This document shows positions 18,392 to 23,382 of a stretch of 64,000 bases of DNA, one piece after another. The translations under genes and the position numbers were made by a program. This DNA is from Desulfosporosinus nitroreducens (GTDB taxonomy: Bacteria; Bacillota; Desulfitobacteriia; Desulfitobacteriales; Desulfitobacteriaceae). The stretch is taken from positions 1 to 64,000 of the forward strand of contig NZ_JAMHFY010000016.1 in NCBI RefSeq assembly GCF_023897015.1, in the 5' to 3' direction. How positions within the stretch are numbered: position 1 is the first letter of the stretch; the number at the start of each line of letters is the position of its first letter. The notes beneath the pieces were generated by a model. The model saw only the letters and a program-made list of their open reading frames with translations, had not been told where the DNA came from and ran no database searches.

Positions 18392-18799
18392 CTACCACAA
18401 ATCGTTTATTCTATTTTTCAGGTCCATAACCTTCTGTTCTATTATTTGGGCAGTTTTTATAAACTCATGCTTATCCTTACCCGTAGGATCATCCAGTCCC
18501 CAATCCTCCCTGTATTTACACGGTAGAATAGGACACTTGACGTTACATCCCATGGTAATTACAACATCCACAGGAGGAATATCTGAGAGCAATTTTGATC
18601 TTTGGGTTGTGTTCATATCAACACCATAAATCTCTTTTATTACTTCAACTGCATCCTGATTAATCTGTGGCTTGATTTCTGTCCCTGCAGAATAGGTTTC
18701 AAAGTTATCCGCTGCCATTAGCTTTGATATTGCCTCTGCCATCTGTGAGCGACATGAGTTATGAACGCAAATATAGGCAACTTTAATTTTTTGAGGCAT
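18392..18799 (-). CDS. arsC: Arsenate reductase, thioredoxin-coupled low-MW phosphatase type
   Basis: 135 aa. Reduces arsenate to arsenite using a Cys relay. The P-loop CVHNSCRS supplies C11 and R17, and the two further redox cysteines are C85 and C89 (MGCNVKCP), with an extra C94. DDPTGK is the conserved general-acid loop. AAGGGG precedes the ATG. It is third in arsR-acr3-arsC; the arsenite formed is exported by the gene just upstream. Confidence 0.92.
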   Translation of the reverse strand: MPQKIKVAYICVHNSCRSQMAEAISKLMAADNFETYSAGTEIKPQINQDAVEVIKEIYGVDMNTTQRSKLLSDIPPVDVVITMGCNVKCPILPCKYREDWGLDDPTGKDKHEFIKTAQIIEQKVMDLKNRINDLW

Positions 18800-18814
18800 A
18801 ATTTAAACCCCTTT

Positions 18815-19891
18815 CTAAAGGCTATGCTTTGGTAGGCCATTTTTATCGAAATACTTGCGTTTGAAGAAGAGTGCTGCATTTACCAGAGCAATCATGACTG
18901 GCACCTCAACTAGAGGACCGATTACCGCAGTGAAGGCAACATCTGATGCTATACCGAATACAGCTACAGCAACTGCTATGGCAAGTTCAAAATTATTACT
19001 TGCCGCTGTAAAAGCTAAGGTTACAGTTTGGTCATATCTGAAACCGCCTTTAAAAGACATATAAAAGCTTACAAAAAACATTATTGCAAAATAAATTAAC
19101 ATAGGTATTGCGATTCTAATGACATCTCCAGGATTTTGAATAATTTGTTCTCCTTTTGTTATAAACATAATGACGATTGTATAAAGCAGTGCAATCAAAG
19201 CCAAGGGAGATATCTTAGGAATGAATACCTTTTCGTACCACTCTTTTGTTTTGACTCTTATCAATCCAAACCTTGTTATAAAACCTGCTGCAAAAGGGAT
19301 ACCTAAGTAAATAAGTACACTCTTTGCTACTTCCCACATCGAAACATCTACCACCTGGCCTCCCCAGGAAAGCCCCAGCCACTTAGGTATGACAGTGACA
19401 AATATATAAATATAGGCTGTGTATAAAAGAATTTGGAAGATAGAGTTAAGGGCAACCAAAGCAGCACAATATTCGTTATCCCCTTTAGCGAGGGTATTCC
19501 AAACAATAACCATTGCAATACATCTGGCAAGACCTATGATAATAAGTCCAATAGCAAAGCCGGGTTTATCGCCCAGCAGCAATATAGCCAGCACAAACAT
19601 CAAGATAGGACCAATAATCCAGTTTTGAATTAGCGAAAAGGAAAAGATCTTTTTATTTTGTGTAACTTTTCCGATCTCTTCATACTTTACCTTGGCAAGG
19701 GGGGGATACATCATAATGATAAGACCTACAGCTATCGGCCATGATATTGTTCCGGTGCTGAATTCACTCAGTGACTTTGCTAAGTCAGGAAAGAAATACC
19801 CACCAAAGACACCGACTGCCATAGCGATAAATATCCAGAGTGTCAAGAATCTGTCTAAAAACGACAACTTAGCTTGTTCAACCTTTTCCAC
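18815..19891 (-). CDS. acr3: Arsenite efflux permease, ACR3 family
   Basis: About 358 aa, ten membrane helices. Characteristic ACR3 segments: [26 protein letters not shown] with the conserved Cys in helix 4, and [21 protein letters not shown]. The second in-frame GTG (19891) has correct spacing from GGAGG, whereas the first abuts it. It moves As(III) out of the cell. Lies between arsR and arsC in one operon. Confidence 0.92.
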
Positions 19892-19911
19892 TTTAATCAC
19901 CCTCCATAAAT

Positions 19912-20250
19912 CTAATCACAGTTCAGAGTCTTGCGAGTTAACCAATCCTTTAAGTTTTTCAGGTCATTTTGATACAGTTCTAGATTCCTCAAATTATCAT
20001 AGACCAAGCTGTCTATAAACTTGATCCGTTCATCGATAGCCAAGGAATAGTAAACCCACTGGGCATGTTTGCGGTCTTTCACCAATTCAGCATTCTTAAG
20101 ATAAATTAAGTGCCTTGAGGCTTTGGCCTGTGAAATTTGTAAGGTTTCCATTATATCGCAAACACAGAGTTCCTTTTCAAATAATAAATTTAGAATCCTT
20201 AACCGAGTTTCATCAGATAGGGCCTTTAAGGCATCTAACAGCTTTTCCAT
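19912..20250 (-). CDS. arsR: ArsR-family arsenic-responsive repressor
   Basis: 112 aa winged-helix ArsR/SmtB protein. The metalloid site ELCVCD (C29, C31) is in the DNA-binding helix, followed by [19 protein letters not shown]. As(III) binding releases DNA. AAGAGGTGAT precedes the ATG. First gene of the operon, with a long palindromic operator directly upstream. Confidence 0.92.
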
Positions 20251-22412: not shown

Positions 22413-23228
22413 TTAAAGGTCTAACGTCTTTGCTTTTTCCTGGGGATACTTATAATAAGGGCATTTATCTTCTCGGCATTGGTGCGGGTGACGTGCGCTA
22501 TAGGTGCAGTCGATCTGCTCGTACGCAGGCAGGGAGACATTAAAGAACTCTTCGGCTGAAGCTGAGGCCTCAGCTAGGGCAGCCCTAACAAAAGCCTTAC
22601 AACAGCATGGACCGGTGAGACTGGCGATGACCTGAACGATATTGCCAACAACGTTCATGGTTTTTGCTGTTTCTTGATCTTTTGGACACGCTGCTCCCAG
22701 CAGAACGCTAAAACAGGCTCCAATAGCCGGGGCAATGCCGCAGACACCCGTTAATCCGCAATATCCGCCGATAGCTTGTTTTTTTGTTCTCTGTAAAGCC
22801 TCTCGAATCTGATTGTCAGCTATTTTTAACGTTCCTTCGTTTTTAAGTGCCGCAAGGAAAGCCCCGGCAGCGATCCAGGCATTCTCACAACCAAGCATTG
22901 GCACTCTTTCATGACTCATCAATCGCTCGGCAATCACAAATGGATTATGTTCTTGAGTTGTCTCAATATCATTCAAAATGAACTCAAATAGATCTTTCCC
23001 ATGGCAATCATCACAAACGTAGTGCCCATTAGGACAACATATATTTCCAATCTCGATTTTCCCGCATTTAACACAGGTGCTCTCTTTGCCCACGCTTAAA
23101 TAGTCCAACGCTTGACCGCAGATTTGGCAATGCTCCGTATTGTTCTTCATAGGATGCTGACCAGCATCCTTCTTTGGTGCTCAGCAACTTTCTACCGGAG
23201 AAGCAACTGGATTTATGAGTTTAGTCAT
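22413..23228 (-). CDS. DUF5714-like Cys-rich protein, probable selenoprotein with N-terminal C-U motif
   Basis: 271 aa if the TGA at 23181-23183 is read as Sec16. The ATG at 23228 has AGGGGGA nine bases upstream and leads into MTKLINPVASPVESC-U-APKK, in frame with the long Cys-rich body. The ATG at 23150, which ordinary calling would use, has no ribosome site and follows a hairpin directly. The hairpin AGGATGCT-GGTC-AGCATCCT begins 11 bases after the TGA, like a bacterial SECIS. Zinc-ribbon-like pairs occur at C34/C37, C52/C55, C64/C65 and C72/C75, with more Cys clusters later (GYCGLTGVCG, GPCCC). The family assignment is from memory; function unknown. Confidence 0.65.
23151..23170 (-). promoter_or_regulatory. 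SECIS-like hairpin in the DUF5714 gene
   Basis: Eight perfect base pairs AGGATGCT/AGCATCCT with apical loop GGTC, the loop starting 19 bases after the TGA. A G-G-U apical loop at this distance is the hallmark of bacterial SECIS elements read by SelB. Confidence 0.65.
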
Positions 23229-23382
23229 GGTGGTATTCCCCCTAAAACCCATTTTTTTCATTATCACATAAACCATAAATGCTGTCACTCTCATTCGGGT
23301 CATCTGCCTCTAAAAAAAGTACCAGCAGACCTCGTGAAACCGGATACGCCTTCTAAAATTCAAATGCTAATCTGAACAAATA

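Follow-up and report, generated by a model that had tools for sequence, protein, structure and literature searches.

The window analysed here, a stretch of 64,000 nucleotides from Desulfosporosinus nitroreducens, carries on its minus strand a frame in which the initial annotation had proposed an overlooked protein N-terminus. That proposal comprised an ATG at 23228 preceded by AGGGGGA and lying 26 codons upstream of a more obvious ATG at 23150, an in-frame TGC-TGA (Cys-U), a hairpin of eight perfect pairs with a GGTC loop 11-30 bases after the TGA, and a DUF5714-like product of 271 residues. All of these elements were located in the sequence, and the features of the locus are as follows.

22413..23228, minus strand: inferred complete gene of a 271-residue single-Sec protein (U16) with a CU arm, a Zn-ribbon-like part and DUF5714, delimited by the frame read through TGA and by the NF045648 match
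23237..23243, minus strand: Shine-Dalgarno element AGGGGGA of the inferred start, 5/6 matches to AGGAGG
23226..23228, minus strand: inferred start codon ATG, from the ribosome site and a comparison of candidate starts in family members
23184..23186, minus strand: TGC, Cys15 codon of the Cys-Sec pair (a Cys codon in 58/59 members, Trp in L152)
23181..23183, minus strand: UGA, inferred selenocysteine 16, from conservation in relatives
23151..23170, minus strand: inferred bacterial SECIS hairpin, 8 pairs with a GGUC loop, from geometry, conservation, covariation and a covariance model
23148..23150, minus strand: ATG (MKNN) within the gene, opening the longest ordinary ORF and probably not the real start, without a ribosome site and poorly conserved
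23004..23129, minus strand: Cys-rich Zn-ribbon-like segment, residues 34-75, from Cys residues invariant in the narrow alignment A1 and strands 37-46 and 53-59 of the structure model
22452..22973, minus strand: DUF5714 domain (PF18978), residues 86-259, from the profile match
22413-22415, minus strand: TAA stop codon ending the frame with TGA read through
19912-20250, minus strand: arsR, context within 18392..20250
18815-19900, minus strand: acr3, context within 18392..20250
18392-18799, minus strand: arsC-like gene, context within 18392..20250

In minus-strand sequence, AGGGGGA (23243-23237) stands 8 nt from the ATG at 23228, and TGC-TGA (23186-23181) forms codons 15-16 of a frame which, with the TGA read through, runs for 271 residues to the TAA at 22415-22413. 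Two more in-frame ATGs lie farther upstream, and inspection of the sequence found a ribosome site at neither. The product belongs to DUF5714 as annotated, with 180.3 bits for PF18978 against a gathering score of 26.2.

Matches to the window protein at E <= 1e-20 were found in 28 of the 45 genomes of its family. We compared the upstream regions of relatives for Cys-Cys or Cys-TGA, the check that the initial annotation had called for. The loci of 37 relatives were retrieved together with flanks (40 stretches chosen among the best matches, minus L086, which holds another gene, and L105 and L106, which lack a DUF5714 match), and 36 of them have Cys-TGA in the aligned position. The exception, L104, is the same gene as L116, from a Clostridia MAG (G076) with SelB in its genome; the CU-hairpin segment is absent from it and the rest is 63% identical. 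Independently, we scanned named contigs; the 68 loci obtained comprised 46 with Cys-TGA, one with Trp-TGA (L152) and 21 with neither. Among these 21 are 13 distant proteins (12 from Lokiarchaeota, one from Chloroflexi), two of which have an unrelated upstream TGA, as well as L116, L135, L153 and five fragments or late-starting alignments (L155, L157, L158, L170 and L174). L135, from a Pelotomaculum MAG, keeps the hairpin sequence but has Cys-Ser before it, with TCA instead of TGA, through either a real loss or a sequence error. After removal of identical copies, and of the archaeal L167 and L172 with a chance TGA upstream (61 to 59), the set of members including the window comprised 30 genes with TGT-TGA, 28 with TGC-TGA and one with TGG-TGA (L152). 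L024 was kept outside both A1 and the 59, having TGTTGA at the place, a TAA three codons later and no similar hairpin. In Desulfosporosinus sp. I2 we noticed a second, split copy (L157, G316:C6:72029-72786) as two adjoining matches, of which the first contains a TGA and the second ends in CKTUTV. Another relative, L246 from Acetoanaerobium noterae, is 52% identical over query residues 10-259; its record, NZ_CP154629.1, is a PLSDB 'plasmid' of 2.6 Mb with a nearly empty gene table, and its size suggests a chromosome.

Cys-Cys forms were found among distant relatives and none among close ones. In 56 additional or distant DUF5714 loci, duplicates and fragments included, an N-terminal Cys-Cys lies 9-10 residues before the first Zn-ribbon Cys in five genes of three genera (loci L247, L248, L249, L253 and L262), namely those of G085, G120 and G229 (one genus), that of G045 and the second gene of G317. 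In the first genus the protein begins MMECCETKYMENC, preceded by AAGGAGATA, a good ribosome site, and the SelB matches of this genus (E about 1e-57) stay short of the cut-off. The genome of G045 contains a full SelB. Since the linker is shorter than in the CU proteins, these Cys cannot be aligned with the UGA without gaps, so that they are suggestive rather than a clean Cys/Sec pair. L019, with CC before a likely later start, was not counted as Cys-Cys. A distant DUF5714 gene of G337 (L055/L263) has Cys-TGA 33 residues before the Zn-ribbon part with no convincing hairpin; it was not counted as a member, and the stretch is possibly a non-coding leader.

The window hairpin, AGGATGCT-ggtc-AGCATCCT (23170-23151), has 8/8 Watson-Crick pairs, begins 11 nt and ends 30 nt after the UGA, has 18 nt between UGA and loop, and reaches an energy of -11.7 kcal/mol for 40 nt. 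Its GGUC loop, 8 bp, 18 nt and -11.7 kcal/mol satisfy the bacterial SECIS constraints as they stand in the excerpted text of PMC13188914 (loop of 3-9 nt with a G in the first two, stem of 4-16 bp, 16-37 nt from the UGA, MFE <= -7.5), and a strict search of this kind is passed by 58/59 members, with L083 failing. The loose rule is obeyed by 67% (stem of at least 4) or 40% (stem of at least 5) of random places in the same genes, so that covariation carries the SECIS argument. Likewise, the 171-nt region folded alone is no more stable than its shuffles (z 0.01), and the relatives therefore had to decide.

A hairpin of at least 4 pairs follows the UGA in 59/59 members, with the loop GGUC in 44/59 in the anchored register. 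Across 56 aligned hairpins (52 distinct; L111, L115 and L152 excluded), 91.0% of cells are paired, as against 16.0-52.9% in slid controls, and 6/6 inner pairs change on both sides. Of 500 shuffles, 13 reached six pairs changed on both sides; the observed values for paired cells, pair types, covariation score and double-changed cells (51) were reached by none. The stem takes forms as different as GATGCT/AGCATC, GATACC/GGTATC, GGCGTT/AACGCC, CAGCCT/AGGCTG and AAGCCG/CGGCTT, and in L103 the hairpin is kept with a different sequence under a different peptide. Best stems average 5.88, compared with 3.97 (sd 0.15, maximum 4.49) in 300 synonymous recodings of the same peptides. A family covariance model, built with the window hairpin included, found the hairpin in the 64 kb at E 3e-5; it also matched the complement of the hairpin (E 0.05) and one further place (E 1.4). 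Rfam gave one irrelevant match (E 0.48) near the gene. The proposal that this hairpin is a SECIS thus gains support, at the level of sequence comparison, from the covariation of all six inner pairs and from its presence in every member.

Where translation begins bears directly on this reading. Conceivably, the gene could start at ATG 23150 and encode a plain 245-aa DUF5714 protein, the upstream frame being a leader and the hairpin regulatory or incidental. That ATG opens the longest ordinary ORF at the locus, the corresponding codon is TTG in L069 and GTG in L070 (close relatives, and the two closest with a fusion), and 44 of the 56 distant loci have neither CU nor CC before the Zn-ribbon. The ATG, however, lies directly 3' of the hairpin with AGGAGG matched 3/6 at best upstream of it, which agrees with its description in the initial annotation as lacking a ribosome site. 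The loop-aligned codon is ATG in only 4/59 members and GTG or TTG in 2, and codons +1 to +21 hold no ATG, GTG or TTG at all in 34/59. Internal candidates with 5/6 Shine-Dalgarno matches occur in only 2/59, whereas the best candidate before U has 5 or 6 matches in 39/59 and lies 8-18 codons before U in 58/59 (35 codons in L100). Homologues consistently starting at the MKNN equivalent would have spoken against the longer protein; judged from the member sequences, the MKNN start is not conserved. A point against the longer protein is that, compared with close relatives, 5-8 of 19 codons of the N-terminal extension are changed nonsynonymously, unlike the body, where change is mostly synonymous (62-68 synonymous and 32-36 nonsynonymous changed codons of 200 against L068-L070). 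Together with the joint conservation of Cys codon, UGA and hairpin, the comparison of candidate starts leaves a plain MKNN start highly improbable, and the true start is probably the one 26 codons upstream of that which simple gene calling would pick.

The window's genome contains SelA, SelB, SelD and tRNA-Sec. Two SelB are over the cut-off, one matched over 1-579 and the other over 2-361 in a 678-aa frame, and there are two SelA and two SelD, each SelD with an in-frame TGA, one of them at a UGC site which we take to be like the usual one. The tRNA-Sec matches score 67.5, 64.9 and 47.2 bits against a cut-off of 47, so the third, which just passes, is doubtful, and the model was also over its cut-off in 5/14 control genomes. 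As a side observation, the Sec machinery genes form two sets in one genome (G000:C95, C66, C55 and C22), and on C55 one SelA adjoins one SelD. In the phylum sample, SelB is matched at E 1e-98 or better, over the cut-off, in all 13 genomes with a CU protein; within the family, the window protein has no match in the 6/45 genomes lacking a SelB above the cut-off. Support from this co-occurrence is weak because the samples are related and partly incomplete. SelB presence was also rejected as a discriminator for the CU protein; 202/299 sampled genomes are over the SelB cut-off.

We conclude, with a probability of roughly 0.93, that 22413-23228 encodes a 271-residue selenoprotein on the minus strand. 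Translation would start at ATG 23228, and the hairpin after the UGA of codon 16 would serve as a bacterial SECIS, recruiting SelB and its Sec-tRNA, so that selenocysteine would be inserted next to Cys15. That the UGA is very probably read in this manner is well supported by the Cys-TGA conservation, the covarying hairpin, the start sites and the Sec machinery. The initial annotation was therefore right on sequence and decoding as regards a Cys-U N-terminus, one which is already modelled in the databases as that of MbdU.

The MbdU model (NF045648, 'metal-binding double selenoprotein') matches residues 12-264 of the window protein over its positions 5-271 of 468 (E 2.4e-124, 415.8 bits), below the curated cut-off of 600 bits. 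Both have an N-terminal Cys-Sec, a Zn-ribbon-like part and DUF5714, whereas the window protein has one Sec and lacks the C-terminal DUF2284 module in which MbdU carries its second Sec. The window protein ends at residue 271, and in frame after its stop there is nothing like DUF2284. The absence of this Sec module makes the window protein a stand-alone, single-Sec variant of the MbdU N-terminal part. A full MbdU of the same genus, L002, scores 780.5 bits over 5-468, shares the start, CU and hairpin of the window gene, and has its second TGA within the DUF2284 module. PMC13188914 gives MbdU two Sec and the motif CU, with Haft and Tolstoy 2025 as the reference. The literature searched yielded no mention of DUF5714, and among the matches listed for MbdU only PMC13188914 concerns selenoproteins.

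Among the 59 members the architecture is stand-alone in about 49, and three are fused to DUF2284 (L067, L069 and L070). Four others (L083, L093, L095 and L098) have three in-frame UGAs each and continue into an AhpD-type domain with CEPU, ending in CKTU; L084 and L099 have the CKTU tail without AhpD and a hairpin after the stop, and so apparently carry two Sec; and L068 has a different C-terminal stretch. In assigning these tails, we read a TGA directly behind DUF5714 as selenocysteine only within CKTU or CEPU, and otherwise as a stop. One nearly identical stem-loop follows the CEPU UGAs, and similar stem-loops lie beyond the stop codon for the CKTU UGAs. The four AhpD forms would accordingly appear, from their sequences, to be triple selenoproteins of the layout CU-DUF5714-AhpD-CKTU, with the alternative that the CKTU UGA is a plain stop with a terminator. 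L153, a relative from a Nitrospirae MAG that lacks the N-terminal CU, has SCUK at its end and a GC-rich hairpin behind that UGA; this is either a Cys-Sec pair at the C-terminus or simply a stop followed by a terminator.

One AhpD form was scanned, L004 (the gene of L083), and no NCBIfam model exceeded its cut-off. The partner part of L004 resembles ArsM_AhpD_UU (NF041537) and MduS (NF045649), and the DUF2284 part of L002 resembles ArsM_DUF2284_UU (NF041536). The fused relatives thus have DUF2284 or AhpD and C-terminal parts in common with these three families, all below cut-offs, and they differ in that, going by the model names, a methyltransferase stands where the fused relatives have CU-DUF5714. 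The window protein, unlike all three, has neither partner module. In essence, MbdU already accounts for the CU motif. What the existing database model does not cover, as far as these tools show, is the stand-alone form with one Sec, the apparent triple-Sec form and the shared partner domains.

A structure model from 33 sequences (mean pLDDT 78.6) predicts a disordered CU arm, with pLDDT below 50 for the first 24 residues, followed by a small beta part with the invariant Cys and a helical domain. A search of solved structures by sequence gave 11 sequences at E 0.16-0.84, none of them credible. By sequence, the DUF5714 protein is perhaps distantly akin to C_GCAxxG_C_C (PF09719), a putative redox-active family for which the tables seen of PMC13188914 list two selenoprotein forms. 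The order of Cys/Gly motifs is common to both families, whereas the profile match covers neither the CU arm nor the Zn-ribbon part. The window protein has no PF09719 match at E <= 1 and stays below its gathering score of 27 bits; the MbdU of G003 reaches 25.5 bits, and 16/33 members match at E <= 1, the best at 8e-5, below the Pfam cut-off. Profile comparison by hhalign gave 68% with a score of 37.7, where 40 shuffles reached at most 24.8 (23/30 sequences, motif filter). Without that filter it gave 33% with 34.9, against 19.0 in 100 shuffles (26/30 sequences), and with the narrow alignment A1 it gave 3.7%.

Two further explanations concern the origin and activity of the protein. The window gene may be a decaying MbdU double selenoprotein that has lost its DUF2284 module, an idea suggested by the DUF2284 fusions L033 (79% identity) and L035 (80%) among its closest relatives and by the lack of any DUF2284-like remnant after its stop. 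We consider this quite unlikely, since most members stand alone, comparison with L068-L070 shows purifying selection on the body, and the window hairpin with its 8 pairs is longer than those of L068, L069, L070 and L109 (6-7). As for activity, DUF5714 could be a shrunken [4Fe-4S] cysteine-desulfidase-like domain (CyuA or L-serine dehydratase alpha), acting as an iron-sulfur enzyme on a thiol or selenol. CyuA (9he0_A) tops a second-look list of structures compared with the predicted model (Z 7.6, 149 aligned, rmsd 5.0), and on visual inspection the two have in common an LGC motif and a stretch rich in Gly and Cys. Against this kinship, however, Foldseek against the PDB had no match at E <= 0.001, Z below 8 is common for such models, and hhalign with CyuA/SDH_alpha gave 0.2-0.5% with a score inside the shuffled range. 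As a homologue CyuA/SDH_alpha thus has a structural resemblance without profile support, and it is kept as a rival that we regard as unlikely. We prefer to see in the window gene a stand-alone selenoprotein. Its function, we infer, is redox activity linked to metals or metalloids, with a mobile Cys-Sec arm borne by a Zn-ribbon-like part and a helical domain rich in Cys.

The neighbourhood of the gene touches on arsenic. An arsR-acr3-arsC cluster lies 2.2 kb downstream of the selenoprotein gene on the same strand; a single operon with these genes is ruled out by two intervening genes on the opposite strand. In 7/59 loci the gene is directly preceded by that of a short ArsR-type regulator. Within the examined flanks, several of them short, ArsR occurs in 10/59 loci, Acr3 in 4 and a MetE-like protein in 6, and 49/59 have no ArsR; the 5.46 Mb of the window's genome hold 8 ArsR-domain places. 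The metal(loid) link is only suggestive, because 49/59 loci are without ArsR and the window's ars genes lie outside the operon of the gene. The MetE-like protein follows the CU-DUF5714 gene in L067, L093, L094, L095, L143 and L148 (that of L095 has no Pfam match at E <= 0.001), and a relative of CopZ-type metallochaperones is near the gene in some of these loci. Adjacent Cys and Sec also occur in proteins tied to organometals, namely HgcA and the Cys-Cys-COOH selenoprotein SaoC, for both of which the tables of PMC13188914 give the motif CU; they have other domains than the window protein, and the SaoC pair is C-terminal, going by its name.

In the mechanism that we consider most likely, the Cys-Sec pair would be located in a flexible N-terminal arm on the Cys-rich Zn-ribbon-like segment and the Cys-rich helical DUF5714. 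The pair may cycle between selenolate-thiolate and selenosulfide, and may pass either electrons or a soft ion (of a metal or a metalloid, for instance arsenic) between the DUF5714 Cys clusters and a partner. Only tentatively, and as the less likely outcome, do we extend this to a family-wide scheme in which CU-DUF5714 would be a Se-dependent metalloid-handling module, alone or joined to ArsM-type DUF2284/AhpD Sec domains, with Cys-Cys in Sec-free lineages. At its largest this would be the three-Sec form, in which CU-DUF5714 is followed by the AhpD CEPU and a C-terminal CKTU whose putative last SECIS lies past the stop codon. If true, there would be an uncharted arsenic or organometal pathway with DUF5714 in place of the methyltransferase.

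For genes of this kind, ordinary ORF calling gives a false start and hides the Sec. A covariation-supported SECIS set is now available for the CU-DUF5714 family, and the partner domains it has in common with arsenite methyltransferase make its function testable via selenium and arsenic. Our analysis suggests that CU-DUF5714, in Desulfosporosinus and other anaerobes, occurs for the most part as a selenoprotein of its own, and not only within the double selenoprotein of the database.
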